In this document: piece after piece, positions 11,649 to 60,368 of the stretch
Numbering within the stretch: the stretch's first letter is position 1
How the letters are laid out: each line of letters starts with the position of its first letter
NCBI RefSeq assembly: GCF_014203955.1
Contig: NZ_JACHKA010000001.1
Location: 2,821,001-2,885,000 of the forward strand
Length of the DNA stretch: 64,000 bases
Source: Sphingobium lignivorans
GTDB taxonomy: Bacteria > Pseudomonadota > Alphaproteobacteria > Sphingomonadales > Sphingomonadaceae
Direction: 5' to 3'
Made by a program: the position numbers and the translations under genes
The notes under the pieces: generated by a model
Seen by the model: the letters and a program-made list of their open reading frames with translations, nothing else
Databases searched by the model: none
Told to the model about the DNA's origin: nothing

Positions 11649-11666
11649 ACATCGGCGTAGCCCGGC

Positions 11667-36736: not shown

Positions 36737-38224
36737 TCAGTCGCCTGCGATCCGATATCGCTGAGGATTCTGCAGCAATACGGGCACTTGCCCTCGCAAC
36801 GCGAGGCGATAGTTCTCGAGTTGAGGATCAATCGTTCGCTCCATCTCCTCCAGCATGAGCCGCTTCATCCGCTCTGCAATCGGACGATGGGCTTCGTCGT
36901 AGACAAGATTGACGCGCTGTCCCGGATCGACCTGCATGTCATAGAGTGCGAGAAGGCGACCGTGAACATATTGGTCAACCCGTTCCGCAATCCGGGCGTC
37001 ACTCTGCGCCGCTTTTTCCATGGCGGGATAGGTCAGGCCCCACATGCTTTCCAGCTTGAGTTTGGTCTTGCCGTCCGCCCAGGCCGTGAAGTGCAGCGCA
37101 TATCGGCGATCCTGCAGGGTTCGTGATGGATAGAGCCAGCCACTGGACACATAATCGACGTAGGACATGACGAACGGCTGCTGGACGGCGCCTGTCCCTT
37201 TCATCAGCGGTACCCAGCTATGGCCGTCGAGGTTGACCGGGCGTTCGATCCCGAGAAGCTCAAGCAGCGTCGGCAGGATGTCGAGGTTGCTCGCAAGATT
37301 GTCTAAGCGGCACGGCGAGGTCATGCCGGGCGAGCGCAAAATGACGGGTGTTCTGATGCCGTGATCGTAACAGGTTGCCTTGGCGAACGGGAAAGGCATT
37401 CCGTGATCCGAAACGAACAGGACGATGGTGTCATCAGCCGCACCGCTCTCCTCGAGCGCTTTGAGGATATTGCCGACGGCGATGTCGAGCCTTTGAGCAG
37501 AGTTCCAGTATTGGGCGATCTCCTGCCGTACCTCGGGAAGATCCTCCAGATTGGCCGGGACAATGACGTCGTCGGGACCGAGCGGATTGGGAATGCGGTA
37601 AGGGCCCTCCTGCCCGTGATCCAGTTCCTCAGCATCCCGGCTGCCATAAAATGGCCGATGGGGATCGTTGATATTGCAGTTGATGAAGAACGGTTTGTAC
37701 TGGGCCTGCGCCTCGGCAATCGCGAGCCGGGTCATATCGGCATGGACCATCGGATGCCGGTCCTTCCCTTCCTGCATCATGTGCCACGGGAAAGACGTCG
37801 CAGGCTGCATGTGCCCGATCTTGTGGCTCGCCGCACAATAATAACCCTCTGACGCCAGCAAGGAGCAGAGCGTGGGCGTTCCTTCATGCATGGGGAAGAA
37901 GCCATTGCCCCCGTTCCGATGTGGCAACAATCCGCTCATGAATGCCTGGCGCGACGGCATACAGATCGGAGCGACGGTCCGGACCTGTTCGAAAACGTGG
38001 CTCTGGCTCGCCAGACGGTCCAGATTCGGTGTCAGGTCGCGTCGCCCGTTCATGAAGCCGAGCGCCGTCCAATCGATATCGTCGGCGGTGATGAGGAGCA
38101 GGTTCGTGCGCTTGCGCTTGTCGCGCTTCACATAATCGCGATCCTGAGCCAGCCCTGGCAAGGAAATGAGGGCGCCCGAGGCAATGCCGGCCATCAGAAG
38201 CTGGCGTTTTGAGAAACTGATCAC
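36737..38224 (-). CDS. S1-family sulfatase A
   Basis: A 495-residue type I sulfatase. A signal peptide ends near GLAQD. The metal-binding NLLLITADDIDW starts the catalytic domain. The formylglycine motif is Cys88-Met-Pro-Ser-Arg (PICMPSRQAFMSG), matching CxPxR, and the second metal site is VLFVSDHGMPF. The start codon is GTG at 38224 with AAGGA seven bases before it. It lies 10 bp after sulfatase B, as the third gene of the reverse operon C-B-A. It should hydrolyse a sulfate ester in the periplasm after maturation by the FGE encoded at 48529. Substrate unknown. Confidence 0.92.
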   Translation of the reverse strand: MISFSKRQLLMAGIASGALISLPGLAQDRDYVKRDKRKRTNLLLITADDIDWTALGFMNGRRDLTPNLDRLASQSHVFEQVRTVAPICMPSRQAFMSGLLPHRNGGNGFFPMHEGTPTLCSLLASEGYYCAASHKIGHMQPATSFPWHMMQEGKDRHPMVHADMTRLAIAEAQAQYKPFFINCNINDPHRPFYGSRDAEELDHGQEGPYRIPNPLGPDDVIVPANLEDLPEVRQEIAQYWNSAQRLDIAVGNILKALEESGAADDTIVLFVSDHGMPFPFAKATCYDHGIRTPVILRSPGMTSPCRLDNLASNLDILPTLLELLGIERPVNLDGHSWVPLMKGTGAVQQPFVMSYVDYVSSGWLYPSRTLQDRRYALHFTAWADGKTKLKLESMWGLTYPAMEKAAQSDARIAERVDQYVHGRLLALYDMQVDPGQRVNLVYDEAHRPIAERMKRLMLEEMERTIDPQLENYRLALRGQVPVLLQNPQRYRIAGD

Positions 38225-38234: not shown

Positions 38235-39707
38235 TTAATAAACGAACTCTGTCTTCCGGCCGCCGATCACCATCTCCCGCGTGGATTTGAGCGGCCACAT
38301 GGCCTCCGGCAAGGAGGCGTCAAATCGATCGACCTTCTCCTTCATCGCCCGGACGCGATCCGGCATGGCGGACGAGAGATCGTTCACTTCCCAAGGGTCG
38401 GCTTCGATGTCGTACAGCCGCGTCTGTGCCCAGTCGTCGGAATGCCAGAGCTTGAAACGACCCTCCCGAATGGCCCGCACAGGCCGCTGACTCCACATCA
38501 AGGTTCGCTCGGGGCCCATGGGTCGCGCGACGGTCGCAAGGAGGTCGAGCCCTTCCAGCTCCTGCGGGACCGCCTGCCTGGGCGCAGCCGCCTTGAGAAT
38601 GGTGGGCAGAATGTCGAGCGCGCTGACGGGCGCGTCGACCCTGCCTCGCTGCTTGAGGCCGTTGGGCCACGACAAGAGGAAGGGGACACGGGTTCCTCCC
38701 TCAAGATAGGTGAATTTGCCGGCGCCCCACGGGTGATATTCCGGGCAGTAGCCGAACTGCACGGGGCAACCATTGTCCGACAGGAAAATCACGATCGTAT
38801 CGTCGCGCACGCCTGCGTCGCTTAACGCCTTGAGGATCTGCCCCACGCCAGCGTCGAGCGCGTCGATCATCGCCACATAGGTGCGCCGGACGGGATCGGC
38901 GATTTCAGTGCGATTGTCATAATAGACCTTGGGCACCTGCAGCGGCCAATGCGGGGCGTTGTAGGCCACGTAGCCGAAGAAGGGCTCGCCCGATGCTGCA
39001 CTGCGCCGAATGAAGTCGACGGTGCGTTCTGTGATCGTTTCCGTCAGATACTGGTTGGGCTGCTCCACAATCTGCATGTCCGGCCCCTCGAAGAGGCGGC
39101 CGCCGCCCTCCCGCTTGGTTGGCTCATAGCGATCGGCTTTGGTCGGTGTGGTGACGAGCCCGGGCGTATCCGGCTCGGCATAAATTGTTTCACCAGCCAG
39201 AAAACCGAAGAACTCGTCGAAGCCCCGGCGGGTTGGATAGAATTGCGGTTCCGCACCCTGATGCCATTTGCCGAAAACAGCCGTCCGATAGCCCATCGGC
39301 TTTAGACGCTCCGCGATCGTCGGCACGTTGGTAGGAAGACCTGCGCCTGCATCCAGATTGCCGCGATCATTGATGTTGTACATGAAGCCGTAGCGCGCCG
39401 GGGTTCGTCCCGTCAAAAGCGCCGCGCGTGATACGGCGCAAACGGAAGCGGCAACATAACCCGCGGAGAACGTCACCCCCTGCTCGCCGATGCTGTCTAT
39501 ATTGGGCGTGTTGATGGTGCCCGCCTTATTGATGGAGACGTCCGTCCATGGGAGGTCGTCCACGAGGATGACGATCACATTCGGCGTCTTCTTCTCCTGC
39601 TGAGCTTGCACTTTGCTCGCCGGTGCGACGGGTGGGACCGGAGCACCTGTGCAACCCGCAATCCCGAAGACGCTGGCGGCGGCCATCAGTTTCATCAGGG
39701 TCTTCAT
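38235..39707 (-). CDS. S1-family sulfatase B, lipoprotein, with CAVSR maturation motif
   Basis: A 490-residue sulfatase-fold protein with a lipoprotein signal (FGIAGC, lipidated Cys19), so it is probably membrane-anchored. The catalytic domain opens with NVIVILVDDLPWTD. The maturation motif is Cys90-Ala-Val-Ser-Arg (SVCAVSRAALLTGR): the usual proline is Val (codon GTA at 39432-39434). The second metal site is VIFLSDNGCP. All other framework features, including LLTGR, are intact. Whether FGE still converts this Cys is open. It starts two bases after the sulfatase C stop with GAAGG as ribosome site. Confidence 0.88.
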   Translation of the reverse strand: MKTLMKLMAAASVFGIAGCTGAPVPPVAPASKVQAQQEKKTPNVIVILVDDLPWTDVSINKAGTINTPNIDSIGEQGVTFSAGYVAASVCAVSRAALLTGRTPARYGFMYNINDRGNLDAGAGLPTNVPTIAERLKPMGYRTAVFGKWHQGAEPQFYPTRRGFDEFFGFLAGETIYAEPDTPGLVTTPTKADRYEPTKREGGGRLFEGPDMQIVEQPNQYLTETITERTVDFIRRSAASGEPFFGYVAYNAPHWPLQVPKVYYDNRTEIADPVRRTYVAMIDALDAGVGQILKALSDAGVRDDTIVIFLSDNGCPVQFGYCPEYHPWGAGKFTYLEGGTRVPFLLSWPNGLKQRGRVDAPVSALDILPTILKAAAPRQAVPQELEGLDLLATVARPMGPERTLMWSQRPVRAIREGRFKLWHSDDWAQTRLYDIEADPWEVNDLSSAMPDRVRAMKEKVDRFDASLPEAMWPLKSTREMVIGGRKTEFVY

Positions 39708-39709
39708 GA

Positions 39710-41617
39710 TCAGCCTTCGATGTTGGATTGTTTGCCCAGTCGATCGAGTTCGAAGATCGGCATGGACGGTTGGTAGCGATCCGTCAGTTTGGCCTCGAGA
39801 TAGAGGGCGCAGCTACGAACAAACAGATAAGGATCACTTTTTGCAGCGGAAATTTGCGAGAGCACCTGCCTGGCCAGAACCGGCGCGCAGAAGGTGAGTC
39901 CATTGATGGCCTGGAGCCGCACCGCGTCGGACTGGCTCGCATCCAGAAGACCTGCAAGCGTCCGGACGCCCTCTTCTCCAAAGCCGAGATGCGTTGCTGC
40001 CTCGGCCGCCGCGATGCGAACCTGGGGGCACGGATCCGCCGCCATGGCAGACTGAACCAGCGCTGCTGCCGGCGTAGCGGTCGACCCGATGATGAGAAGG
40101 CCAGTCGCGGCCCAGTAGCGCATTACGGCATCCGGATGGGAAAGGAGCTTGCCAAAGCGATCGGCATTTGCCGGGTCGCCTTGCGCCGCATCGGCTGCCA
40201 GCGCCATGATGTTCTTGAGCGGATAGGCACCCGCGACACGGCTGGCTTCATAGCCTTCGACGGACATGCCTTCCGGGATGAAGCCATTGTCATGAATAGC
40301 GAGCATGTGGGCATCGAGCGCCCGGCTCATGCCCCTCATACGGTTCTTGTATTCGGAACGGGCAGCCAGATTCTCAACCTGATCAGGGTCGTTCTTCAGA
40401 TCGTAGAATTCTTCAGCAGGACGGGGTTCGAAAAAGCGCCTTTGCTTGCTGCTGCATTGGCCCACCAGAAACGCCCGCTCATAGGACTGATAGCCTTTGG
40501 CGAGCCATGCGAAGGCTTGATGCTGACCGCAAGGCCGATGCGGCGCGTAGTTCCGTATGTACCTGTACCGGCCCTCCGTCACGGTACGGACGAAGTCGTA
40601 GCGCTCGTCCATCCGATTCCGCATGCCGAAGGCAAAGCTCTTCGAAGGCACGCGGCGCTTCCCAAGAAACGCGCTTCCCTGCATCGTCGCAGGCGCACGC
40701 TGGCCCGCCAGGGAAAGCACGGTCGGCGCAAGGTCGATGAAGCTGACCGCCGTGTCGACCACTGTTGCGGAACGATGCGGCGACAGATGGGCAAATTTGG
40801 GCGGTACGCGCACCACCAGTGCGCAGCGCAATCCCTCATCATAGCAATAGCGCTTGGAACGAGGGAGCGAGCCGCCATTGTCAGAATAGTAAAAGACGAT
40901 CGTGTCGTCCGCGAGGCCATCCGCCTCCAGCGCATCGAGCAGCCTCCCGACCTGGGCGTCCATCTGCTCCATGAGATTATAGTAAGTGGCATAATCCTGC
41001 CGGATTTCGGACGTGTCCGGCAAATGCGTGGGGACGCGGATATCGGACGGGGTGACGCGGCCGGCCACCGGGTTGAAAAGCCGAGACTCATGCGTGGTCA
41101 TCATGTTGAAGACCGACATGAATGGAGCGCCTTCCGGCCGGTCACGCCAGTGCGCTTGCGCTCCCTGAGCGCTCCAGATCGTGTCCGATTCGACATCGCA
41201 ATTGTAATCGGTTTTGGCGTTGTTGGAGCAGAAGTAGCCTGCGTCGCGCATCAGTTCCGGGTAGGTTCGGATAAAGCCCGGCAGGTGGGCGCGGGCCCGC
41301 ATGTGATGCGCCGGGCCGCAACTTTCAGGATAGACTCCCGTCAAAATACCAAAGCGAGAGGGCGCGCAGACCGGGGCATTGGAGTAGACATTCCGGTACA
41401 GAATGCCCTCGTTCGCCAGCCTGTCGATTGCCGGCGTGTGGGCCAGAGGATCGCCATAAGCGCCGATGAACGGGTTATTATCCTCGCTGACGATCCACAG
41501 GATGTTCGGCAGGTCCCCCTTCGGGGCACGGACGGCCGACCGCGCCCCCGCTGCTGTTGCAAGGGCAGCGATGCCAGCGACGATCTGTCGTCGCGTAGAG
41601 TGCCCTCCGCCCGTCAA
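39710..41617 (-). CDS. S1-family sulfatase C with C-terminal HEAT-like repeats
   Basis: A sulfatase of about 635 residues counted from TTG 41617. A Tat signal (STRRQIVAGIAALATAAG) places two arginines about ten residues from that start. The catalytic part has ILWIVSEDNNPF, the CxPxR motif as CAPSR (VCAPSRFGILTG) and FYYSDNGG. The last 130 residues are helical HEAT-like repeats (AVMRYWAATGLLIIG; PQVRIAAAEAATHLG; DAVRLQAINGLTF), a fusion seen in some sulfatases. An ATG at 41713 would add 32 unlikely residues. The TTG overlaps the stop of a 51-codon frame (TTGA), see 41614. It is the first gene of the C-B-A operon and faces the LacI operator. Confidence 0.88.
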   Translation of the reverse strand: MTGGGHSTRRQIVAGIAALATAAGARSAVRAPKGDLPNILWIVSEDNNPFIGAYGDPLAHTPAIDRLANEGILYRNVYSNAPVCAPSRFGILTGVYPESCGPAHHMRARAHLPGFIRTYPELMRDAGYFCSNNAKTDYNCDVESDTIWSAQGAQAHWRDRPEGAPFMSVFNMMTTHESRLFNPVAGRVTPSDIRVPTHLPDTSEIRQDYATYYNLMEQMDAQVGRLLDALEADGLADDTIVFYYSDNGGSLPRSKRYCYDEGLRCALVVRVPPKFAHLSPHRSATVVDTAVSFIDLAPTVLSLAGQRAPATMQGSAFLGKRRVPSKSFAFGMRNRMDERYDFVRTVTEGRYRYIRNYAPHRPCGQHQAFAWLAKGYQSYERAFLVGQCSSKQRRFFEPRPAEEFYDLKNDPDQVENLAARSEYKNRMRGMSRALDAHMLAIHDNGFIPEGMSVEGYEASRVAGAYPLKNIMALAADAAQGDPANADRFGKLLSHPDAVMRYWAATGLLIIGSTATPAAALVQSAMAADPCPQVRIAAAEAATHLGFGEEGVRTLAGLLDASQSDAVRLQAINGLTFCAPVLARQVLSQISAAKSDPYLFVRSCALYLEAKLTDRYQPSMPIFELDRLGKQSNIEG

Positions 41618-41820: not shown

Positions 41821-41840
41821 ATGATTTACCGCTAAATCAT
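41821..41840. promoter_or_regulatory. LacI-type operator O1 between lacI and the sulfatase operon
   Basis: ATGATTTACCGCTAAATCAT: an inverted repeat with nine of ten half-site positions matched and a central CCGC. It lies 53 bp before lacI and 52 bp before the leader ORF of the sulfatase operon. It shares the TTTA(G/C)CGCTA core with 45325-45338 and 51907-51920. Confidence 0.75.
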
Positions 41841-41892
41841 ACGTCTCTATGCGCCCTTGTCAATCAGTGCTCAAACCGCATAGGGATTTGCC

Positions 41893-42933
41893 ATGACCAA
41901 ACGCCCCCGTCGCCGAAGCAAGAATGTCGTGACGATGGCGGAGGTGGCCAACCTCGCCGGCGTCTCGACGATGACGGTTTCCAACGTCCTCAACAACAAG
42001 CCAAGCGTGTTGCCTGAGAGGCGACGGGCAGTCCTCGAAGCCATGGACAAGCTGAACTATCGCCCCAATGTGGCAGCACGTGCGCTAGCCAGCGCAGGCT
42101 CTATCAGGATCGGCCTACTTTATCGTGACGTGGAGAACGCCCTTCTCGGCGCCATGTTGGTCGGCGCGCTGAAGGCGTCCGCACGCTTCGGCTTTCAGCT
42201 CATCATTCGCAGTTATGACGAGACAAAACCTCTCGACGATGTGGCAGCCTTTGCGGTGAGCGAAATCGACGGCCTCCTGCTCCCTCCTCCGCTTTGTGAG
42301 CTGGTCAGCTTCAGCGGCATCTCGGCGAAGCTCAGCATCCCCATGATCGGCCTCGCGCCCGGAACGAACCTGTCTGACATTCCTGCCGTGCGGATCGACG
42401 ATGAGGTGGCCGCTTATGAAGTCACACACCTGCTGCTGGAGAAAGGGCACCGCCGGATCGGCTTTGTGAAACTTCCCGGAGCCATGGTGGGGCAGACGCG
42501 CCTGGCCGGCGTTCAGCGGGCCCTCGCCGAGCACGGGGAAGTGCTGGAAGAGCGGTTCATCTGGGAAGCCCGTCCGATTTATGAGGCCGGTCTCGCCCTG
42601 GCGGATATGGTTTGCAAGATGGAAGAACGGCCAACCGCCATCCTGGCCGGCAGTGATGACATCGCCGCAGCCTTCGTCAACGTGATGCATCGTTGCGGAC
42701 TGCACGTCCCGGAGGATATCTCGATTGTCGGCTTTGACGACACACCGATTGCGGTGAAAATCTGGCCAGCTCTGACGACCGTACGCCAGCCACTGGCGCG
42801 CATTGCCGAACAGGCGACCGAGCGGCTCATTCAGATGATCCGCAACCCGGAGCAATATACCAACGACGTGATCTATATACCCCATGAGATCATTCAGCGG
42901 GCGTCGGTGTCCGAACGTCCTTTACAGGACTGA
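41893..42933 (+). CDS. LacI-family transcriptional repressor of the sulfatase locus
   Basis: A 346-residue LacI/GalR regulator. The helix-turn-helix (residues about 13-35) is TMAEVANLAGVSTMTVSNVL; the hinge helix that inserts at the centre of the operator is RPNVAARALAS. The sugar-binding-type core extends from SIRIGLLYRDVEN to PLARIAEQATERLIQMI. It is divergent from the three-sulfatase operon, with O1 between them. Two more copies of the same dyad precede the TonB receptor and the GH3/FGE operon, so it most likely represses all three units and itself. A (sulfated) oligosaccharide or its product is the expected inducer. A strong terminator follows. Confidence 0.92.
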   Translation: MTKRPRRRSKNVVTMAEVANLAGVSTMTVSNVLNNKPSVLPERRRAVLEAMDKLNYRPNVAARALASAGSIRIGLLYRDVENALLGAMLVGALKASARFGFQLIIRSYDETKPLDDVAAFAVSEIDGLLLPPPLCELVSFSGISAKLSIPMIGLAPGTNLSDIPAVRIDDEVAAYEVTHLLLEKGHRRIGFVKLPGAMVGQTRLAGVQRALAEHGEVLEERFIWEARPIYEAGLALADMVCKMEERPTAILAGSDDIAAAFVNVMHRCGLHVPEDISIVGFDDTPIAVKIWPALTTVRQPLARIAEQATERLIQMIRNPEQYTNDVIYIPHEIIQRASVSERPLQD

Positions 42934-42937
42934 CAAG

Positions 42938-42965
42938 AAAGGCGGTGAATCGCTTCACCGCCTTT
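42938..42965. terminator. intrinsic terminator after lacI
   Basis: AAAGGCGGTGAA (42938-42949), loop TCGC, TTCACCGCCTTT (42954-42965): a perfect 12-bp stem four bases after the lacI stop. The A- and T-runs at its two feet allow it to serve both lacI and the convergent TonB-receptor gene. Confidence 0.85.
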
Positions 42966-43001
42966 CGATAGATTTCCAGGGAAGCCCAGCCCCTCAGCGC
43001 A

Positions 43002-45287
43002 TCAGAAGTGCACGGCTGCGCGCACGCCCCAGTAACGCTCGGCGTCACGCAGGACCTGCTGGTACACCCGGCCACCATTGAAGGTGGAGTTGAAGAGGTT
43101 GCCCGTGAAGTTCTTGTCGAACAGGTTCCTCACGAACACCGACACCGAATAGGTGCCGTCCTTGCTTTCCAGGCCCACGGCCCCGTTTACGACGGCATAA
43201 CCATCCTGGATCGTCTTGGGATCCTGATCGAGACTGTATTGCACCTTGGTCTGGTACACCACGTTCGACTGAATGAAACCATCGAAAGGTGCGCTGTCGC
43301 CAAAGGGCACGGTCTGACGCACGTAGAATGTGCCGCGGAAATCCGGGGCATTGGGCAGTGCGCCACCGCTCAGGTCCTGAGATCCGCCCACGCAACCTTG
43401 CGCTGCCGTCTGGCCCACATGGCAGGGGCCGATCGGGAACTCGTCGATACGCGCGTCCGTCCAGGTTCCGCCCAGCGAAATGTCGAGAAGCCGGGTGGGC
43501 CTAAGGGTGGCTTCGAGTTCGATGCCACGCGTCGAAACGGTGCCTGCGTTCAGCAGGTAGAACGAGATATCGCCGGGCAGGCGCGCTTGGGACTGATAAC
43601 CCCGATACTTGGTGTAGAACAACGCGGCATTGAGCGAGAGCTTGCGGTCCAGTGTCTGAATTTTCGCCCCTACCTCGAAGGCGTCAGACAGCTCGGGATT
43701 CACAGGCTGGTCGGTCGGTTGGGTAGCAAAGATCAGGTTGAAGCCCTTGCCTTTGTAGCCGCGTGCGTAACTGGCATAGACATTGCCGAGGTCCGTCAGG
43801 CTTTGACGAATGCCGATCTTCCCGACCACCGCCGTATCGCTCGTGGAGTTCGAGAAACTGGCGGCCGTACCCGTCGCGCCGGTCAGCGGCAAATCACCGG
43901 GAACGAGTATGTCGGCGGGATCGCGATCTGCGCTCCACTCGAGCGTCTCGTGCAGCAGGCGTAGACCGCCGAAAAGTTGGGTGTTCGCCGTCAGATCGAT
44001 GTTCGTGCCGATGAACGCCGCCACATTCGAACTGGATGTGCTTCCGGAGAACTGCCCGCTGCGGGGCCCCGCCACAAAGACCTGGCGACGCTCAAACGTC
44101 GTGTCGATGTCCACCTTGGACGCGAAAGCGCCCACAAGCAGATCGAAGCCGCCCAGATCACCGGAAACCAGGCGAACTTCCTGCGTCAACTGCTGCAGAG
44201 AGGTGGTGCCGCTGTTGATGTCCCACAGGCTGACACCTGCAACAGGTGTCGTCAGCGAGGTGTAGTCGGTGTCGCCGCGACCAGTGAAATCCCACTTCCT
44301 GATCGCGCTGATCGAGACCAGCTCGAAATTGTCGTTGAGACGGGCCTTGATGCGTGCGGAAATACCCCACTGCTCGCTGTCGTTGGTATTGTCGGCATTC
44401 AGGTTGACCTGCCGGTTTTCGGCAGACGGGACGACGGGCGCCACGGCATTGGCATAAGCCGCTGTTCCAAGCTCGCGCAGCGTCGGAACGGTCGTGTCGC
44501 TGCCCTTGCTATAGTCGCCGATAATGGTGACTTCGAGATCGTTCGTGGGCTCGAAGCGCAATTTCCCTCGCGTTCCCCAGACATGGTAACCTGAGAGCTT
44601 GCTGTCGCCGATGCCGGAAACGTTGTCCACGAAACCGTCATAATCCTTGAAGAAGCCGCTGAGACTGAAACCCAGTACGTCATTGATCGGACCGGAGATT
44701 GAGCCGCGGAGCTGCAACTCGCCGCCTTCTGCGTACATCGCATCGAAATCGCCCGTAAGCGTGCGACCCGGCGCTTTGGTCGTAACCGACACAAGGCCGG
44801 CGGATGCGTTCTTTCCGAAAAGCGTGGATTGTGGACCACGCAGAACTTCAACCCGCTGGACATCGATCAGATCCTGGAAGCCCTGACCGGATCGGGCCAT
44901 CGGCACATCGTCCACAATCACCGAGACGGCCGGTTCAGTTGCCGCGGAAAACACAGTCGTCCCGATGCCGCGGATGCTAAGCGAGCTGTTGGACTGATTG
45001 CTGCCCTTGGTGAACGTCAGGGACGGAGAAGCGTTGGCGACTGCTTCCATGGACGACGCGCCAATCGCATCCAGCTGCTCACCGCTCACGACGGACACGG
45101 CGACCGGAACCTGCTGGAGGGTCTGCTCACGCAACGTTGCGGTAACGACGATGTCGCCAACCTCGGCGGCTGCCTCTTCTTGGGGAGCCGCAGCTTCCTG
45201 ACCGGCCTGTGCCATCGCGGCATGCGGCAGGGCGGTAGCGAGAGCACTGATACTGCACAGCGCGAGGATTCTAAAATGGCGGATCAT
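43002..45287 (-). CDS. TonB-dependent receptor of the sulfatase locus
   Basis: A 761-residue receptor. The signal peptide is MIRHFRILALCSISALATAL and onward to AMAQ. The TonB box is DIVVTATLRE. The plug has SIRGIGTTVFSAATEPAVSV and LRGPQSTLFGKNASAGLVSV, and the barrel ends in WGVRAAVHF. ATG 45287 has GGGGAGGAG; the frame opens eight codons earlier. Operator O2 (45325-45338) lies 38 bp upstream, so it is directly under LacI. It should import the sulfated glycoside or its fragments. No SusD-like partner is present, as expected for Proteobacteria. Confidence 0.93.
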   Translation of the reverse strand: MIRHFRILALCSISALATALPHAAMAQAGQEAAAPQEEAAAEVGDIVVTATLREQTLQQVPVAVSVVSGEQLDAIGASSMEAVANASPSLTFTKGSNQSNSSLSIRGIGTTVFSAATEPAVSVIVDDVPMARSGQGFQDLIDVQRVEVLRGPQSTLFGKNASAGLVSVTTKAPGRTLTGDFDAMYAEGGELQLRGSISGPINDVLGFSLSGFFKDYDGFVDNVSGIGDSKLSGYHVWGTRGKLRFEPTNDLEVTIIGDYSKGSDTTVPTLRELGTAAYANAVAPVVPSAENRQVNLNADNTNDSEQWGISARIKARLNDNFELVSISAIRKWDFTGRGDTDYTSLTTPVAGVSLWDINSGTTSLQQLTQEVRLVSGDLGGFDLLVGAFASKVDIDTTFERRQVFVAGPRSGQFSGSTSSSNVAAFIGTNIDLTANTQLFGGLRLLHETLEWSADRDPADILVPGDLPLTGATGTAASFSNSTSDTAVVGKIGIRQSLTDLGNVYASYARGYKGKGFNLIFATQPTDQPVNPELSDAFEVGAKIQTLDRKLSLNAALFYTKYRGYQSQARLPGDISFYLLNAGTVSTRGIELEATLRPTRLLDISLGGTWTDARIDEFPIGPCHVGQTAAQGCVGGSQDLSGGALPNAPDFRGTFYVRQTVPFGDSAPFDGFIQSNVVYQTKVQYSLDQDPKTIQDGYAVVNGAVGLESKDGTYSVSVFVRNLFDKNFTGNLFNSTFNGGRVYQQVLRDAERYWGVRAAVHF

Positions 45288-45324
45288 GAAACTCCTCCCC
45301 TTATTCATCACGGGTATTTACAAA

Positions 45325-45338
45325 ATTTAGCGCTACAT
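45325..45338. promoter_or_regulatory. LacI-type operator O2 upstream of the TonB receptor
   Basis: ATTTAGCGCTACAT, followed by ATCG, identical from TAGCGCTACATATCGT onward to the site at 51907. The centre TAGCGCTA is a perfect palindrome. It lies 38 bp before the receptor start. Confidence 0.75.
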
Positions 45339-45556
45339 ATCGTTCGCTCTGCACGGCGTCAACCTGGGCGCGATCACCTCCGCAGCGCTTTGGACGCCCC
45401 CTGTTTCTCGCGCAGCAGGCGGTGCCATTGACGCTTGTCACTGCGCCGAGCGACCGCAACCGCGCTCTCCCCTACCCCGGGGAAATTCGGCCGGCGGGTG
45501 ATCAGTGGATCGAGCGCAGGTCCGGTCGCGCGAAAAGCCGTGCGCGACTTATCTTT

Positions 45557-46816
45557 TCATCGCGATCGCCTGATGGGTGCGATCGCCAAGGCGCCAAGCA
45601 GGGCGAAGAGGGTGCCAGCGATGAAGACGGCGGCGTAATTCTCGCCGTCCGCACTGCCCAAAACGAGAATGATTGGTGCCAGGGCCGGCGCCAACGACTG
45701 GGGCAGCGAATTTGCGATCTGGAAAACACCCATGTCCTTGGCACGCTCTTCCTTGTTCGGAAGGATGGCCGCAAGCAGGGCAAGATCCACAGCGAAGTAG
45801 AGACCCTTCCCCAGCCCGGCGACCGCAACGCCGACAAGGAATTGCGGCACCGAAGGCGCCAGGGCGACGAGCAGGAAACCTGTCGCTTCAATGACAGCGG
45901 CCAGAGCGACGAACGGCTTGCGACGCCCTGACCAGTCCGAGATAAACCCACCGACGATTGAAACGCTGATGGTCGCTACGGCGATAATCGCCATCGACCG
46001 CACCATGACCTGTGTGGCGTCGGCCCGTTCGAGCGAAAGCTGATCGGTGAGAAAAAACAGCTGATAGGTCAGCAGGAACGACCATGCCATCATGATGAGG
46101 AAGCGGCTGACGAAGGCCCAGCTGAAATCCCGATCGAGAAAAGGCTTGATCAGCGCGCGCGGTATTGCTGCGAGATCAGCCCGATGGCCGTTCTCTGCAG
46201 ACGATGCCCGGTCAGGCAGGATCAGAACGAGAGCCAGGACACCAAACACGGTGACGCCGAAAGGGGCGAGGAACATCAGCAACGTGGAAGTCTGCGTAAA
46301 CTGGGTGATCCAGCTTCCGGCGAAAGTTGCCGCGGTGGAGGTCATGCCGAGCATGCCTGCGACTCGGCCCTGCAAACGGAATGGAACGACATCCGGCAGA
46401 ATCGGCAGGCAGGCGGCCTGCATGGCATTGAAACCGGCCTGGCAGATCATCCAGCCCAACCCAAGCAAAAGCAGGTTGGGCGCGGTTCCTAATATGGTGA
46501 GGCCGACCGCACTTACAGCCAGGCCGCCCACCAACCATGGCCGCCGACGTCCAAAGCGGCTTCGGGTTCGGTCCGAAAGTGCACCGCAAACAGGAGCGGC
46601 AAGGAGTGCCACAAAAGCGCCCGTCGCGAGGATAATGCCCAGCCACTGCCCCTTCTCGGCCTCGGTCGCGATCTCGCCCACCCGCAGGGCGATGGTCAGA
46701 ACAACCGGCGTAAGCAGGGCCACCCAGATACCGAACTGGGCGAGCACATACACCGCGATGAAGCCGCCCGAGACGTGGCGGACGTCTTCCGCAGGCGCAT
46801 CGAGTCCTGTCGTCAT
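45557..46816 (-). CDS. MFS sugar transporter of the sulfatase locus
   Basis: A 419-residue, 12-helix MFS protein. The helix 2-3 loop motif is GALSDRTRSRFGRRRPWL, typical of the glycoside-cation/sucrose-type MFS branch, and a second loop motif GGFISDWSGRRKPF is in the C-terminal half. GGAG lies ten bases before ATG 46816. It is the last gene of the GH3-FGE-sulfatase D-MFS operon, 30 bp after sulfatase D. It probably brings desulfated or sulfated saccharide across the inner membrane, which suits the GH3 enzyme being cytoplasmic. Confidence 0.86.
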   Translation of the reverse strand: MTTGLDAPAEDVRHVSGGFIAVYVLAQFGIWVALLTPVVLTIALRVGEIATEAEKGQWLGIILATGAFVALLAAPVCGALSDRTRSRFGRRRPWLVGGLAVSAVGLTILGTAPNLLLLGLGWMICQAGFNAMQAACLPILPDVVPFRLQGRVAGMLGMTSTAATFAGSWITQFTQTSTLLMFLAPFGVTVFGVLALVLILPDRASSAENGHRADLAAIPRALIKPFLDRDFSWAFVSRFLIMMAWSFLLTYQLFFLTDQLSLERADATQVMVRSMAIIAVATISVSIVGGFISDWSGRRKPFVALAAVIEATGFLLVALAPSVPQFLVGVAVAGLGKGLYFAVDLALLAAILPNKEERAKDMGVFQIANSLPQSLAPALAPIILVLGSADGENYAAVFIAGTLFALLGALAIAPIRRSR

Positions 46817-46846
46817 CTTAGTCTCCGAAAGGCGCCCCGGGGGGCT

Positions 46847-48532
46847 TTAAGGCCGGTACGACCGCTTTTCGGCATCGGCTTTGGCCTTCGCCGCGCTGTC
46901 GGGGAACAGGCCGTTCATCTTGGATGGCAGGTTCGGCTCGATGTACCAGTCGTCGGGAAAATCAGCGGCTCGGGAGCCGCCGATCTTGCGGCTGACGAGA
47001 CCCGTGCTGGTCTTTTCCGAGAAGGGAACCACGTGCTGACCCTGATTATTTGCAAGCTGCTCGAAAAGCGCCTTGCGAAGGGTGATCTTGATATCGAGCC
47101 AAGCTGGATCGTTGATGAGGTTATGCCGTTCATCGGGATCGGCCTTGAGGTCATACAGTTCCTCAAGGTCCCATACGCCGTGATACTGAATGTACTTAAC
47201 CCGATTGCGCTGGATGGCGAAGGTCGTGGGGGTCTGCGGGAAGCTCCACTCCCAGTAATATTCGTAGACGAAGTCTCCAGCACCCCAGGCCTTCTCATCG
47301 ATCTTACCTTCTGCCAGTGGCAGTAAGCTTTTGCCTTCCATCTGGGCTGGCTTGCCAAGCTGCGCGACATCGAGGAACGTCGGCGCCAGATCGAGATTAC
47401 GCACCACGGCGGGGTTGGTCACGCCCTTGGGCAGGGTGCCAGGCGCCCAGACGATCATCGGCACCCGAACCGAAGGCTCATAGGCATTGCGCTTGTCGAT
47501 CAGGCCGTGCTCGCCGATCAGAAAGCCATTGTCCGAATAGAAGACGACCATCGTGTTCTTTTCGAGGCCGTTCTTCTTCAGATAGGCCATGATCCGACCC
47601 AGGCTTTCATCCACCGGGCTCAGCGTGCGGTAGTAATCGCGCACCTGCTCCACCATGGAACGATCGGTGTGATAGGGGAAATCCGCGCCATGCCAGCTGT
47701 TGCGCTGATTGCGGACCCACATCGGCTTGCCGGCATTGTTTTCCGGCGTATTCGGCATGGTCGCCGGCAGTTCGATCTTCAGGTCAGCATATTGGTTCTT
47801 GTAGCGCGCGGGCGGCACCGGGTCGGAATGGACCGCCTTATGGCTGAGATAGAGGAAGAATGGCTTGCTCCGGTCCCTCCCCTTCTCCAGCCAGTTCATC
47901 GCATAGTCGGTGAGCTCGTCGGTGATGTATCCCTTCTGCTGAACAGGCTTGCCGTCCACATTCAGCATCTGGCGCTCGCCAGCGGCGATCCGCTCAGGCG
48001 ACAGCAGGTCCGTGGGGAAGTAGGTCCCCTGCCCCTTGAAGCTGACCCAGCGATTGAATCCGGGCCGTGGCGCGTCAGTATCCGCCCCCATGTGCCACTT
48101 GCCGAAGAAGCCGGTCTGATATCCCGCCTGCTGGAGATAGGCTGGGAAAAAGGTCAGATGTTCCTCAGATGAATCATGATTGTCGACCACGCCGTGATTG
48201 CGCGTGCTCTGGCCGGTCAGGATCGTTGCCCGGCTCGGCGAACAGAGCGAGGAGGTCACAACGGCGTTCGGGAAGTACACCCCTTCCTTTGCAAGCCGGT
48301 CGATATTGGGCGTGTTGAGGCCAGGCTTGAGAAAACCCATCGCATCGTAGCGGAGGTCATCGACCAGCACGAAGACGATGTTCATCGGCTTCCTGTCGTG
48401 AGCATCCGTCTGCAGGGAGCCACCCGCGTCGGCGGTCGATGTGGTCTGACCGGCCCACGCGGCCGTGGTCAGCAGGATACAGGCCGAGAAAGCGGCGGCG
48501 CGCAGGGCAATGTGGGAGCGGGAGCGGGTCAT
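46847..48532 (-). CDS. S1-family sulfatase D
   Basis: A 561-residue sulfatase. A signal peptide ends near AAWAGQ. The catalytic domain starts MNIVFVLVDDLRYDAMG. The formylglycine motif is Cys97-Ser-Pro-Ser-Arg (SSLCSPSRATILTGQ), a normal CxPxR. VVFYSDNGFLIGEHG is the second metal and sulfate-binding block. It resembles the branch of arylsulfatase-like enzymes acting on saccharides. ATG 48532 overlaps the FGE stop by four bases, so FGE and this sulfatase are translationally coupled. The frame opens far upstream but those codons lie inside the FGE gene. Confidence 0.92.
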   Translation of the reverse strand: MTRSRSHIALRAAAFSACILLTTAAWAGQTTSTADAGGSLQTDAHDRKPMNIVFVLVDDLRYDAMGFLKPGLNTPNIDRLAKEGVYFPNAVVTSSLCSPSRATILTGQSTRNHGVVDNHDSSEEHLTFFPAYLQQAGYQTGFFGKWHMGADTDAPRPGFNRWVSFKGQGTYFPTDLLSPERIAAGERQMLNVDGKPVQQKGYITDELTDYAMNWLEKGRDRSKPFFLYLSHKAVHSDPVPPARYKNQYADLKIELPATMPNTPENNAGKPMWVRNQRNSWHGADFPYHTDRSMVEQVRDYYRTLSPVDESLGRIMAYLKKNGLEKNTMVVFYSDNGFLIGEHGLIDKRNAYEPSVRVPMIVWAPGTLPKGVTNPAVVRNLDLAPTFLDVAQLGKPAQMEGKSLLPLAEGKIDEKAWGAGDFVYEYYWEWSFPQTPTTFAIQRNRVKYIQYHGVWDLEELYDLKADPDERHNLINDPAWLDIKITLRKALFEQLANNQGQHVVPFSEKTSTGLVSRKIGGSRAADFPDDWYIEPNLPSKMNGLFPDSAAKAKADAEKRSYRP

Positions 48533-49497
48533 GAGGGCATGTCCTCCTTGTTGTCCCTGATGATGCAACGAAAGCCGATATGGCTGGTCGAACTGTCCAC
48601 CGGCTGCGGATGCCGCGCTGCCGGTCGGTAGCGCTGGCAATAATTGGGCGCACAAAGATGTGAGCCGCCCTTGAGGACCTTGCGGCCGATCGGGACATGC
48701 GGTGCACAGGGATCGAGGCTCTCCCGCTCCGTGCCTCCGCGGGGATTGGATGGCACGCAACAGGCACCGGCAGGTTTCTGCCCGGCCTTGGGCAAGGCGT
48801 ACCAATCGGCCGTCCATTCCCAGACGTTGCCGATCATATCGAAAAGGCCGTAATCATTGGGTGGATAGGCACCCACCGGAGACGTGCGCAGATAACCGTC
48901 TGCCATGAGATTCTGGTACGGAAACTGACCCTGCCAGTAATTGGCCAGGACACTTCCCTCCGGAGCCAGCTCCTCGCCCCAGGCATATTCCATGCCCGCA
49001 AGCCCGCCGCGTGCTGCGTATTCCCACTCCGCTTCCGTCGGCAAGGCCTTGCCGGCCCAATCGGCATAAGCCTGCGCGTCCTTATAGGCGATGTGAACGA
49101 CGGGATGATCCCACAGGCCGTCGAGCGAGCTGTCCGGTCCGTGCGGATGTCGCCAATCCGTACCGAAGCTGAACTGCCACCATTCGCGGAAATCCCGAAG
49201 ATCGACTGGCCCACTCGTTGGCATGAACAACAATGAGCCCGGCTGAGCGAACTCGGCCGGCATGCCCGGATAATCGGCAGGATCGGGCGCGATCTCCGCC
49301 AGGGTCCGGTGCCCCGTCGCCTTCACGAATTCTGCGAAGGCCCGGTTGGTGACCGGCGTTTCGTCGGTCCAGAAGCTGTCGACGCGCACCTGTCGAACGG
49401 GTCGTTCCTCCGGATAGAAGCGCTCTGATCCCATGGCAAAGACGCCACCGGGAATGTGCCGCATGTTTTCGGTGGACGGGGTGCTGGCATCCCTCAT
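48529..49497 (-). CDS. formylglycine-generating enzyme (SUMF1/FGE family)
   Basis: A 322-residue FGE-sulfatase-domain protein. It opens MRHIPGGVFAMGSERFYPEE and has the family blocks WDHPVVHIAYKDAQAYADWA, RLPTEAEWEYAARGG-like (LPTEAEWEYAARGG) and GNVWEWTADW. Both copper/redox cysteines of true FGEs are present: Cys282 and Cys287 in KGGSHLCAPNYCQRYRPAAR, followed by DSSTSHIGFRC. It lacks a signal peptide, as bacterial FGEs act on unfolded sulfatases in the cytoplasm. It should oxidise the CxPxR cysteine of the neighbouring sulfatases to formylglycine. ATG 49497 or 49464 could be the start; neither has a strong ribosome site. Confidence 0.9.
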   Translation of the reverse strand: MRDASTPSTENMRHIPGGVFAMGSERFYPEERPVRQVRVDSFWTDETPVTNRAFAEFVKATGHRTLAEIAPDPADYPGMPAEFAQPGSLLFMPTSGPVDLRDFREWWQFSFGTDWRHPHGPDSSLDGLWDHPVVHIAYKDAQAYADWAGKALPTEAEWEYAARGGLAGMEYAWGEELAPEGSVLANYWQGQFPYQNLMADGYLRTSPVGAYPPNDYGLFDMIGNVWEWTADWYALPKAGQKPAGACCVPSNPRGGTERESLDPCAPHVPIGRKVLKGGSHLCAPNYCQRYRPAARHPQPVDSSTSHIGFRCIIRDNKEDMPS

Positions 49498-49573
49498 CTG
49501 TGGGCGCCGATCGCTGGGGAAGCTGCCACAGGTCGCGGACCGATGCAGGCGGGGCGTGGAGAGCCGTTCCCGA

Positions 49574-51262
49574 TTACCACCGCAACTGCTCCATGCCGCA
49601 GAAGGGATCGACGGGACTGTCGCCTGTGAATGACTGCCGGCCGAAGAGGCGCAGGGCCAGCTCTTCCTGAACGACGGGCAGTGCACTGTACGCATTGATG
49701 CAGGTCGACATATTCGGCACGTCGTAGAGATAATAAGGCTGTCCAAACGACACCAGAAGCGTCGGAATTTCGCGATTGAACTGGACCATGGCGAGGCGCG
49801 ATCCGCCATGCAGCCTGGTGAAGTCAAGGTAGATGTGACTGATCGCCGGGGTCGCCTCCTGACCGACAAGATAGAGAAGCAGGTCGCAATCCTCGCGGGT
49901 CGGCAGGCTTTCCGGGTCGTAAAAGCGGACCTCGTGCCCGTTCGCTTTCATCGCCCCGAGCAGCGGGTCGAAGCTCCGGGGTGCAGCACCGGACACGAAA
50001 TTCCAGCCTTCGTCGGCGATCACGACGATGCGTCGGTGGCGCTGGGCGTCCAGTGGAAGGAGAGCCTGGCTGTCCTTCACGAGAGTAATACTTTTGCCAG
50101 CAGCCTGCTTGGCGGTTTCGCGATGATCGTCGTCGGCAAGCTTCGCCCTCAACGCGTCGAGCGGCGGCAAACGATCTTCCGGCATTGCGCGGTGGAGACC
50201 AAGCGCGGCCTTCAGGGAAAGCATGCGCGTGACCGCCTCCTCGAGCCGCTGCTCCGAGAGCCGTCCTTCCCGCAAGCCTCTGAGCATGCGGTCCATATCC
50301 TCGCGAGGCTCCCGGCTGAACAGGAACACATCGCATCCATTCTCGATCACCGCTGGAACGGCCGCCTCGCGGTCCATCCAGCTGGTCAGCCCGCCCATCA
50401 CCGTCGCGTCGGAGACGATGACGCCGCGAAAGCCGAGTTCGTCGCGAAGAAGATCCTGATTGAGCAAGCGCGAAACGGCGGCAGGCGCAAAAGCGTCCCG
50501 CCCGAGGTCTGGAAAACGCGCCCGAGCAAATGCCGGCAAAGCAATGTGCCCTGACATGATCGTCATCACCCCGGCACCGATCATCGCGCGGAAGATGCGG
50601 CCGAAGCTTTGCTCCCACGCGTCCATGGACAGGGAATTTACCGACGTGCTCAGATGCTGATCGCGATCGTCGATCCCGTCACCCGGCCAGTGCTTTGCGC
50701 AGGCTGCCAGACCTTCCGACTGCAAGGTCCGGATATAGGTCGAGGCATGACTGATGATCCGGTCCGGGCCGGCCCCGTAAGACCGCGTGCCGACCACGGC
50801 GTTACGGAAAGCGTGATTAATGTCGACAACCGGGGTGAACGACCAGTTATACCCAAGCGCCCGGCTCTCTTTCCCAACAATATGGGCAAGTCGTTCCGTT
50901 AGATCGAGGTCATTACAGGCAGCAATGCCCATCTGGTTCGGGATCTGCGTCGCGAAGGGTGCGCTCAGCATCCCGCCCTCGATATCCCCCGAAAGGATCA
51001 GCGGCACGTCCGAACGATCGAGTTGCGCCCGCGTTGCCGACCAGGCGGCTTCGAGGTCGTGGGTCGGGAAGCGGTGAACACCGCCTGGTGCAAAGCCGGC
51101 CAGCCAGTCCACCTCTTCCAGCGTGTCCTGCCGGGACGAAAGAATGAAGAGCTGCGCGACCTTCTGCTCGACGCTCAAACCGTCGCGCGTTCGCTCCACC
51201 CAAATGCGGTCTTGAGGCGAAAGGGACAGGGGATCGTTTGATGAGGCGCGATTGATGTTCAT
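49574..51262 (-). CDS. GH3-family glycoside hydrolase (NagZ/beta-glucosidase-like)
   Basis: A 562-residue GH3 enzyme. The (alpha/beta)8 domain (about residues 25-345) has the KHWPGDG motif (Lys190-His191) and DDRDQHLSTS. The probable nucleophile is Asp285 in GVIVSDATVMGGL. The second alpha/beta domain runs to the end (ITLVKDSQALLPL; RIVVIADEG; LLVSFGQPYYLYDVP). No signal peptide is seen, so it is probably cytoplasmic. GH3 enzymes remove terminal beta-glucosyl, xylosyl or N-acetylhexosaminyl units with retention; specificity is not readable. ATG 51262 overlaps the stop of the upstream frame at 51259 as ATGA. Confidence 0.9.
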   Translation of the reverse strand: MNINRASSNDPLSLSPQDRIWVERTRDGLSVEQKVAQLFILSSRQDTLEEVDWLAGFAPGGVHRFPTHDLEAAWSATRAQLDRSDVPLILSGDIEGGMLSAPFATQIPNQMGIAACNDLDLTERLAHIVGKESRALGYNWSFTPVVDINHAFRNAVVGTRSYGAGPDRIISHASTYIRTLQSEGLAACAKHWPGDGIDDRDQHLSTSVNSLSMDAWEQSFGRIFRAMIGAGVMTIMSGHIALPAFARARFPDLGRDAFAPAAVSRLLNQDLLRDELGFRGVIVSDATVMGGLTSWMDREAAVPAVIENGCDVFLFSREPREDMDRMLRGLREGRLSEQRLEEAVTRMLSLKAALGLHRAMPEDRLPPLDALRAKLADDDHRETAKQAAGKSITLVKDSQALLPLDAQRHRRIVVIADEGWNFVSGAAPRSFDPLLGAMKANGHEVRFYDPESLPTREDCDLLLYLVGQEATPAISHIYLDFTRLHGGSRLAMVQFNREIPTLLVSFGQPYYLYDVPNMSTCINAYSALPVVQEELALRLFGRQSFTGDSPVDPFCGMEQLRW

Positions 51263-51840
51263 AATACCCGAAAATTCGTTGAGGGCCCCTCTGAGGGTTG
51301 CCCCCAAAGCTTGCCGGCCGTTGGATGTCCGGTGCCTGCCTGGAGAGAGGAGAGGCAGGCACCGGGAACTAGGGCGCCGCGGGTCATAGCTCGGCGCCCA
51401 TGCAAAAGGTCATCGTTGAAGGGGCAGCTGACGCTCGGCGCGACATTTGCAGGCGCCGTCCTTGAGTTGCGCGTAGCCAAGATGGTGTCGCGTGCGTCGA
51501 TCGCACAGCGAACGCCCGTGACCAGCTCGCGCTTGATCGATGCGTCACTGGACAGATCAACATACTTACCAGGTTCGTTGCGCGTATAACTACGACGATC
51601 TGAGGCACGCATGGCGACGAGGGCGGAAACATCGGCGTTCTGGCAGCTCTCGGCGAACTGCGTCCCGGGCTGGCCCAGGTGGTCTCTCTTTCGAAATACT
51701 GGCCGTGCGGCACGACGGGTGATGGTTGATTTCGGTATCAGGGCATTAGGATTAAGGCTTAGACAGCTCGCCGAGCCGCCGCGCTTCCCGGTACCAGCGT
51801 CAGTGAGGAAAGGCCCGTTGCCATTTACACTGAAAGCCAT
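51259..51840 (-). CDS. unrecognised 193-codon ORF leading the GH3/FGE operon
   Basis: An open frame from ATG 51840, which follows GGGGAGG at about eight bases. Its TGA overlaps the GH3 ATG (ATGA). Operator O3 lies 66 bp upstream of the ATG, the same geometry as at the TonB receptor. The product begins MAFSVNGNGPFLTDAG and matches no family I know; parts such as CQNADVSALVAMRAS and YVDLSSDASIKREL faintly recall TonB-receptor barrel strands. Codon use is poorer than in the neighbours (ATA, CTA, AGA, CGA occur). It may be a decayed receptor tail retaining its promoter, a leader, or a new small protein. Confidence 0.4.
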   Translation of the reverse strand: MAFSVNGNGPFLTDAGTGKRGGSASCLSLNPNALIPKSTITRRAARPVFRKRDHLGQPGTQFAESCQNADVSALVAMRASDRRSYTRNEPGKYVDLSSDASIKRELVTGVRCAIDARDTILATRNSRTAPANVAPSVSCPFNDDLLHGRRAMTRGALVPGACLSSLQAGTGHPTAGKLWGQPSEGPSTNFRVL

Positions 51841-51906
51841 CCCTCAACCTCCCCGGCCCAAGCCTTCACGGCCTGCCATGGCGCATGCCTCCATGCCATC
51901 ATCTTG

Positions 51907-51920
51907 ATGTAGCGCTACAT
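51907..51920. promoter_or_regulatory. LacI-type operator O3 upstream of the GH3/FGE operon
   Basis: ATGTAGCGCTACAT: a perfect 14-bp palindrome, followed by ATCGT as in O2. It lies 66 bp before the leading ORF (ATG 51840) and about 645 bp before the GH3 gene. The decayed IS element starts 110 bp farther upstream. Confidence 0.78.
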
Positions 51921-52029
51921 ATCGTCTCTTCTGTTAGAGTCAAATGATGCAATTGCGAGATCCAGGCGAGCGATGGCGGATCGAGCGTGGGGACGTGGGT
52001 GGTCGGGCTTCTATCTTGATGAACACTAG

Positions 52030-52875
52030 GTTGTGTGGACAGTTATCGGAGCCATAGAACGGTAGCAGCGAGAGCGACGACGGCGAGGTAGTTCCTGGCG
52101 GTTTTCTTGAAGCGGGTGGCGACACGGCGGAACTGTTTGAGCTTGCTGAAGCAGCATTCGACGAGATGTCGCTGGGCGTAGAGATGCTTGTCAAGCGGGT
52201 ATTTCCGAGTGCGCGACGGGTTGTTCGGGATGACGGCGACAGCGCCTTTTTTCAGCGATGAGCTGACGGAATGTGGTCGGCATCATAGGCAGTGTCGGCC
52301 ATGACGACCTGGGCGGGCATGTCATCGATTAGCGGCGCGGCGTGTGGCACATCGCCACGATGACCGGCGGTGAGAGCGAACCGTACGGGACAGCCCAGGC
52401 CGCGAACCGCAAGGTGGATCTTGGTGCTCAGGCCGCCGCGGGAACGACCAATGGCTTGATCTTCAAGCCCCCCTTTTTGGCCCCCGCCGCATGTTGGTGG
52501 GCGCGAACCACGGTGGAATCGACAATCAGATACTCAAAGTCCGGATCATCGGACATCGCCTCGAATATTCGCCACCACACGCCTTTCGCGCTCCAGCGAC
52601 TGAAGCACCGGAACACGCTGTTCCAGTCCCCGAAAACTCGGGAAAATCACGCCAGGGCGAGCTCGTCCGAACGATCCAGAGCACCGCTTCAACAAACATC
52701 CGGTTGTTCCGCCCCGTCGACCCCTTCTGATCAGGACGACCGATGATCAACGGCGCCATCCGCTCCCAAGCCCCATCGCTCAGTACCAATCGATCCATCA
52801 CACCCAACGCTGCCTCCAAAAGACAGCCTTGAATCAGACTTCAACACAAATGAGAATCCCAAGAGTCCACACAAC
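52030..52875 (-). mobile_element. IS5-family (IS427-like) insertion sequence, decayed
   Basis: An 846-bp element bounded by terminal inverted repeats GTTGTGTGGAC (52030-52040) and GTCCACACAAC (52865-52875). It encodes an IS5-type DDE transposase on the reverse strand, now broken by several single-base indels. It lies between the LacI operator O3 and the DUF8021/TonB-receptor operon, i.e. at the boundary of two accessory modules. Confidence 0.88.
52043..52798 (-). pseudogene. IS5-family transposase, frameshifted
   Basis: Reading across frames gives an IS427-group transposase. The start is MDRLVLSDGAWERMAPLI, then GSTGRNNRMFVEAVLWIVRT, FRCFSRWSAKGVWWRIFEAM and the DDE region LIVDSTVVRAHQHAAG. 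These are followed by IGRSRGGLSTKIHLAVRG, VVMADTAYDAD, KHLYAQRHLVECCFSKLK and an end at 52043. One base is missing near 52637 (PEF to FGDW). A shift at the A5G6 run near 52468-52478 may be natural slippage. Further one-base insertions lie near 52265-52290. At least two are true lesions, so no active transposase is expected. Confidence 0.85.
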
Positions 52876-57231: not shown

Positions 57232-57387
57232 GAAATCCTCCCCCGTTTTTATTCCTGCCTGTTGAGACAAACGGGCGGCGCTTTTGTGTAGAAAGACATT
57301 CGCATTCAGCAGCGAAGAATGAGTGCCGCCACCAGGAAATGGCGCACACGGGGTGCTCCGCAGGCGTGCCGGGTCGTCAGCAGACCT

Positions 57388-58338: not shown

Positions 58339-58369
58339 TAGTCCCTCCCCTTTTCAGCGCCTGCCCCGC

Positions 58370-59931: not shown

Positions 59932-60368
59932 GAGCCGGCCTGTCTCTCCTTCGAAGGCGCATGTTATCACCCCTTGAGACAATCGACGGAACAACATGTG
60001 TAAGAGGAAATTGATGATGCGATTTTTTGATGAATGAAGGGCTGCTTTCAGTCTTTGGCGGAAGGTGCGTCGAACGACCGCAAGGTCGGCGTTAGGCGCC
60101 CAAAGCCCTGGCCGAGGCGCTGGCCACCGCCCACCGGAAACGTGCCCGCGACGTTGAGCCCGGCGTAGCGAGTCTGCTCTGGATGCTGGGTTTCGACACC
60201 TGCCTCTGTTCATCGGCCCGCTGGCAGGAAGCCATCGTCTGGCTTTGGGCTTCCCCGCCGGTGTCTACAGTCACCATATGCGGAAAATCCGACCGCGCAG
60301 CGTCTTCAGGTTGATCTGAGGCGTCTTCCATTCGCAGGATTCTCAGTTCCAGGTAGAACAGTCGGATG
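59932..60368. other. 437-bp gap upstream of the sigma-factor gene
   Basis: No gene is supported. An A/T-rich stretch near 59998-60035 (ggaaattgatgatgcgattt) is the likely promoter area for the sigma-factor operon. A reverse reading of about 50 codons ending at 60048 (with GTFPVGGGQRLGQGFGRL) has some protein-like character but no start and no known family; it may be the tail of a lost gene. Confidence 0.45.

Follow-up and report, generated by a model that had tools for sequence, protein, structure and literature searches.

Introduction

At the sux locus of Xanthomonas, a LacI repressor (SuxR) occurs together with a TonB receptor, a major facilitator superfamily (MFS) transporter and sugar enzymes (PMC1790865). 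A gene cluster of similar make-up lies in Sphingobium lignivorans, whose genome is a single contig of 4,207,152 bases, within positions 2821001-2885000 of that contig (64,000 nucleotides, hereafter the window, whose own numbering is used for its features). Like the sux locus it combines a LacI repressor, a TonB receptor, an MFS transporter and glycan enzymes, and it shows the gene content of the carbohydrate utilization with TonB-dependent transporter (CUT) loci, in which TonB receptor, inner-membrane transporter, glycan enzymes and regulator stand side by side. It is unlike the Xanthomonas CUT loci in that sulfatases and a formylglycine-generating enzyme (FGE) are the putative main targets, in having T for G at position 6 of the operator half-site, and in having Asn for Arg at LacI position 22 of the repressor.

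An earlier note on this DNA had proposed that one LacI protein coordinates import, desulfation, maturation of sulfatases by FGE and glycosidic cleavage by a GH3 enzyme. The present analysis supports this proposal through phylogenetic footprinting, the genome-wide uniqueness of the motif, the overlap of its sites with predicted promoters, the match between a recognition-helix residue and an operator base, and the arrangement in another genome of the family (G174). We put at roughly 0.88 the probability that the LacI protein encoded from position 41893 represses three operons through three sites, and probably its own gene as well, and is released by an inducer.

Parts of this arrangement have precedents. 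The xyl-box of Xanthomonas XylR, TGGTAGCGCTAACA, shares the TAGCGCTA core (PMC10380989). According to Camas et al. (2010; PMC2978694) residue AA-20 (= LacI 22) covaries with operator base NT-6, Arg going with G; the central CG palindrome, this covariation and the conserved hinge leucine recur here, whereas the code given there comes from a TVSR majority and the present clade has TVSN or SVSN paired with T6. Carbohydrate regulons of LacI proteins have likewise been predicted by comparative genomics (Ravcheev et al., 2014; PMC4052901), and the main text of that study, as distinct from its database, contains neither the word “sulfatase” nor “Sphingomonad.” Searches of the open-licence literature, judged by the titles and abstract beginnings listed, yielded no sulfatase-plus-FGE regulon under a LacI protein. 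The kind of switch is therefore known, while a sulfatase/FGE regulon and the unusual recognition residue and operator base were not found described.

Results

Three palindromes, which the earlier note had located correctly, form the putative operators, and all are centered on CG with T at position 6 in 6/6 half-sites. Operator 1 (41821..41840, ATGATTTACCGCTAAATCAT, palindromic in 9/10 pairs) lies between the sulfatase C-B-A operon and lacI, operator 2 (45325..45338, ATTTAGCGCTACAT) before the TonB receptor gene, and operator 3 (51907..51920, ATGTAGCGCTACAT, a perfect 14-mer palindrome) before the GH3/FGE/sulfatase D/MFS operon. The TAGCGCTA core was found 2 times in the window, with 0.11 expected. 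Since strict palindrome pair-count scans miss or under-score many of the relatives' sites, these were collected by the core, and a 20-bp matrix was made from 33 distinct TAGCGCTA sites of relatives only; its core is fixed by selection, because the training sites were picked by it. On the 64 kb this matrix ranks the three sites first to third (29.0 bits for operator 2, 25.7 for operator 3 and 24.0 for operator 1), and the fourth position reaches 7.8 bits.

Genome-wide, ATGTAGCGCTACAT at ≤1 mismatch occurs at sites 2 and 3 only. At 2 mismatches there are 17 more places, which we regard as background because the reversed control gives a similar count (14 places at ≤2 mismatches). The degenerate pattern WTNTASCGSTANAW, composed after the sites were seen, is found at 3 places in the whole 4.207 Mb, namely the three sites, with 1 place for its reversed control. 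A sequence-only model from relatives (R1, with 34 hand-picked relatives' sites, leaving out the unlike L067:16159 and L076:13981 and some motif-like ones, e.g., in L025, L026, and L047) gave 5 strand hits at E≤10, all at the three sites, with 150 of 842 first-look candidates scored; operator 1 was the weakest (12.6 bits, E 0.7). The many unrelated promoters carrying the motif that the earlier note had named as a contrary outcome do not appear in this genome.

The repressor gene (41893..42933, plus strand) encodes an N-terminal LacI helix-turn-helix (PF00356, 8.3e-18) and a periplasmic-binding-protein-like core (PF13377, Peripla_BP_3, 2.3e-32), which places its product in the LacI/GalR family; CcpA is its best-scoring solved relative. 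The hinge leucine L65, which we take to be LacI L56, is invariant in 12 aligned proteins. The recognition helix reads TMTVSN; at LacI residue 22 it carries Asn in place of the Arg found in most members of the family. The protein falls outside the TVSR subgroup (Thr-Val-Ser-Arg, G at NT-6), being TVSN with T6 sites.

This departure extends to the related loci. Among sites collected by core, half-site position 6 is T in 62/66 half-sites of Asn-type loci and G in 112/122 of Arg-type loci, and by locus majority it is T in 18/18 Asn loci and 0/51 Arg loci (48 G, 3 ties). The Asn set comprises 19 locus records, 18 with the exact core, and contains near-duplicate assemblies, possibly of the same organism; the Arg set leaves out L125 (Arg-type) and L138 (His-type). 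Because Asn and T6 depart together at the covarying residue and base, the operator fits this particular repressor. The omitted L138 locus (9863-12610), from Novosphingobium umbonatum, has His at LacI position 22 and T6-type sites of 24.2 and 19.8 bits, and may be an intermediate; no sulfatase homologue was found in its neighborhood.

The gene content of the relatives follows the same division. The LacI protein was compared against 61 genomes and 80 loci were fetched, the best matches among named relatives being in Sphingobium, Novosphingobium, and Altericroceibacterium. Asn stands at LacI position 22 in 10/80 loci (L066-L073, L076, L078), and each of these encodes a protein 59-77% identical to one of the window sulfatases or to the GH3 enzyme (GH3 only in L068), while in the other 70 the best match to a window sulfatase or GH3 is 35%. 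The absence of sulfatases means little in three of the 80 loci (L096, L102, and L116), as these are shorter than 10 kb, and one Arg-type locus (L091) has an FGE relative (57%) and a weak sulfatase match with no such operator. In the Sphingobium loci L071-L073 and same-genus loci, two sites 44-46 bp apart lie upstream of lacI, by a divergent TonB receptor gene. FGE homologues are present in 7/17 related locus records, in which at least two genomes occur twice (L051/L073 and L053/L071), and also in L073; record ends often cut the operon.

On one contig of the genome G174, which was not in the training set of the matrix that scored its sites, genes homologous to those of all four sulfatases (A-D) and the TonB receptor, at 54-65% identity, are accompanied by sites scoring 30.1, 25.6, and 22.5 bits. 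The Asn-type lacI of G174 (49%) is on a different contig, where a 24.9-bit site lies between the lacI 3' end and a GH3-like gene.

One competing explanation is that the sites are operators of another regulator encoded elsewhere, such as a different LacI protein acting on the TAGCGCTA core. This core is widely used by LacI proteins, occurring in 51/68 Arg-type loci as well as within the xyl-box, and in four genomes the motif is present although no such lacI lies close by. However, only 3 LacI genes were found in the genome (from 4 matches, one gene being split over two stretches), and the other two are distant, Arg-type and ≤34% identical to the repressor. At positions 17-18 they have TA and AA, and the sites in their 3.1-kb loci score 5.4 bits at most. 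Position 6 of the window sites is also T, vs. the G of Arg-type sites. A different regulator thus seems very unlikely.

Each of the three sites overlaps the −10 box of a proposed promoter on the minus strand. These promoters are TTGACA-16-TATGAT toward sulfatase C (41836..41863, 11/12 matches) at operator 1, TTGACG-17-TATGTA (45334..45362) at operator 2, and TTGACT-16-TATGTA (51916..51943) at operator 3, the last two each with 8/12 matches, below the general-scan threshold. TTGAC stands 24-31 nt upstream of the core at 3/3 window sites, 19/38 relatives' sites and 455/40,000 random positions, with the spacing range fixed after the window sites were seen. Sites 2 and 3 are indeed identical to the right, as the earlier note had remarked, the identity running from TAGCGCTACAT through ATCGT. 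The promoter's −10 side (ACGATATGTA, minus strand) falls within this common extension, and the ATATCGT identity is therefore probably promoter sequence. As the operator overlaps the −10 box in all three cases, the placement is compatible with a repressor that acts by occlusion. There are LacI proteins that act as activators when bound at particular positions, and the 41893 protein could in principle be an activator or dual regulator at these sites, but with all three overlapping the proposed −10 box and none upstream of −35 we find this scarcely probable. That the palindromes are chance or structural features (terminators, IS ends) without regulatory role, to which the IS5-family remnant adjoining operator 3 might point, can practically be set aside, since 20 Mb of order-2 simulated sequence held 0 positions reaching the lowest-scoring site under the relatives-only matrix and the sites are conserved across genera.

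The spacing of 38-66 bp between the sites and the first reading frames, given in the earlier note, needs correction in part. Operator 1 does precede lacI, lying 52 bp before its ATG at 41893, while the TonB receptor site is 37 bp before ATG 45287, which follows GGGGAGGAG, and sulfatase C has no in-frame start closer than GTG 41713, at a distance of 107 bp. Because the 5' extension has non-coding base composition, the true start of this gene probably lies near 41617. A GGAGG-like stretch without a close ATG or GTG after it was also seen there, and translation may begin at TTG 41617 or at a less common codon.

For the rightmost operon the order ORF/GH3/FGE/sulfatase D/MFS stands as first described, but its leading ORF is doubtful. 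This frame of 193 aa (51259-51840, 66 bp from operator 3) was rejected as a gene; its GC content by codon position is flat (0.60/0.58/0.63), compared with 0.60-0.66/0.41-0.51/0.71-0.76 in the eight intact frames measured without extensions, and it has no Pfam match and no tblastn match in the 80 related loci, so it is probably not a gene. The first credible gene after operator 3 is that of the GH3 enzyme, with ATG 51262, 644 bp from the site. In the interval between them (51262-51907) no credible gene was found, and it may be a leader, a decayed gene or a deletion scar. The minus strand carries a disrupted remnant of an IS5-family transposase (~52043-52840), one fragment of which matches the IS5 model below its cut-off, ~100 bp past the operator 3 −35 box, and a six-frame comparison of 51200-52350 with the 17 related loci gave a single match, in the IS5 region.

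The remaining genes of the cluster, all on the minus strand, were assigned by Pfam. Sulfatase A (36737..38224) has N-sulphoglucosamine sulphohydrolase as its best solved match, sulfatase B (38235..39707) an exo-4S-kappa-carrageenan sulfatase and an S1-19 sulfatase, sulfatase C (39710..41617, or from the upstream GTG 41713) S1_8C, and sulfatase D (46847..48532) the putative sulfatase 9s03 and a mucin-desulfating sulfatase, with the N-acetylglucosamine-6-sulfatase 5g2v fourth. The GH3 enzyme (49574..51262) is best matched by the BglX beta-glucoside phosphorylase, and an N-acetylglucosaminidase is also among its solved relatives. As these solved relatives diverge (N-sulphoglucosamine, mucin or N-acetylglucosamine-6-sulfate, kappa-carrageenan, and beta-glucoside phosphorylase or N-acetylglucosaminidase for GH3), we claim no substrate. 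The TonB-dependent receptor (43002..45287) and the MFS transporter (45557..46816) complete the set. Where lacI and the TonB receptor gene converge, a palindrome, GCGGTGAATCGCTTCACCGC (42942-42961, 9/10 pairs), lies between their ends and is perhaps a shared terminator. Adjoining the cluster, a TonB receptor with a weak STN-domain match, a FecR protein and a sigma-70 region 4 protein lie close together at 54175-60213, an arrangement like that of a surface-signaling system.

Cys-type S1 sulfatases carry a C-x-P-x-R site motif at which formylglycine is formed. By eye, this motif is CMPSR in sulfatase A, CAPSR in C, and CSPSR in D, while sulfatase B has CAVSR. The FGE (48529..49497, or with its start at 49464; PF03781, 3.4e-79) aligns at full length with solved formylglycine-generating enzymes and keeps the cysteine pair, LCAPNYC vs. 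LCHDSYC of 6muj (C-x4-C), presumably the catalytic cysteines. The genome has 5 PF00884 sulfatase genes, of which 4 are in the proposed regulon. The fifth (L060, G000:C1:2541860-2542810), with CSPTR, is unlinked, and the best site in its 4-kb locus scores 5.7 bits; by eye it adjoins TonB-receptor-like and TetR-like frames.

Other FGE-domain matches in the genome are two stretches of one gene, which we take to be EgtB-like from its layout and general knowledge, and a 96-residue C-terminal fragment of a second FGE. The latter (L057 1357-1644) keeps the cysteine pair and adjoins a TonB-receptor-like frame. A radical-SAM sulfatase maturase is represented in the genome by one sub-threshold match only (52.9 bits vs. 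a cut-off of 349). Because these other FGE-domain and radical-SAM matches fall short, the only recognized intact sulfatase-maturing enzyme of the genome sits in the proposed regulon.

Discussion

The analysis supports a predicted single regulon for import (TonB receptor and MFS transporter), desulfation (4 sulfatases), maturation by FGE and GH3 cleavage. We propose that a dimer of the repressor would bind the consensus (A/T)T(G/T)TAGCGCTA(A/C)A(A/T) at the three sites over the −10 boxes of the leftward promoters. Without inducer, RNA polymerase would be blocked at the sulfatase C-B-A operon, the TonB receptor gene and the GH3/FGE/sulfatase D/MFS operon, and the repressor would probably block its own gene too, via the shared operator 1. 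A sugar derived from a sulfated glycan would then bind the periplasmic-binding-protein-like domain and free the operators, so that uptake, desulfation, sulfatase maturation and glycosidic cleavage would be switched on together. In this scheme it is an inference that the protein binds the sites and that it represses and does not activate, and inducer and substrate are inferred as well.

Several observations weigh against the regulon as drawn. The FGE gene of G174 is separate from the cluster and the highest-scoring site in its 19-kb stretch reaches only 12.1 bits, so control of FGE by the repressor is not universal. In a sample of 119 family genomes, the pattern WTKTAGCGCTAMAW occurs in 7. Neighborhoods were fetched for the five not already known, and apart from G174 these (G072, G084, G100, and G148) showed neither cluster nor lacI homologues within ~9 kb; their sites score 17-25 bits, three of them 23-25, and may be due to chance or to other regulators. 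The reversed control is present in 21/119 of the same genomes, so the motif alone is not diagnostic. Across the sample, motif and FGE presence (a relative at E≤1e-60, counted in 36/119 genomes) are unassociated, with 3 genomes having both (G000, G028, and G174) vs. 2.1 expected. The region-wide promoter scan gave 7 promoters vs. 4.7 expected from shuffles (sd 2.4), which is not above chance, and only the operator 1 promoter passed the general scan. An unexplained leader of 644 bp would precede the GH3 gene. Finally, in a tree of 57 rows (the window, 51 of the 80 fetched loci, 3 from further genomes and the 2 paralogues of this genome), the Asn rows and one His row form a single group (99/100), and the correlation between Asn and T6 therefore amounts to one evolutionary event, for which the Fisher value of the half-site comparison overstates independence.

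Beyond the regulon itself, we see about even odds for a broader scenario in which Arg was replaced by Asn at LacI position 22 in one LacI clade of the sphingomonads and the operators of this clade changed from G6 to T6, insulating the sulfated-glycan regulon from the many LacI regulons with the TAGCGCTA core, and in which the repressor gates every sulfatase of the cell. The unlinked fifth sulfatase would need the regulated FGE, and because the sole recognized intact maturing enzyme belongs to the regulon, all sulfatases would come under the repressor's control, including this one, which has no operator of its own.

For sphingomonads, the locus offers a testable regulon for the use of sulfated glycans, in a group for which the searches of the open-licence literature turned up no account of how sulfatases and their maturation enzyme are regulated. 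It also presents, at LacI position 22, a naturally occurring exchange of residue and matching base that lends itself to a test with one residue and one base pair swapped, and it leads to the prediction that a sulfatase encoded at a distant place in the genome would depend on this regulon for its activity.

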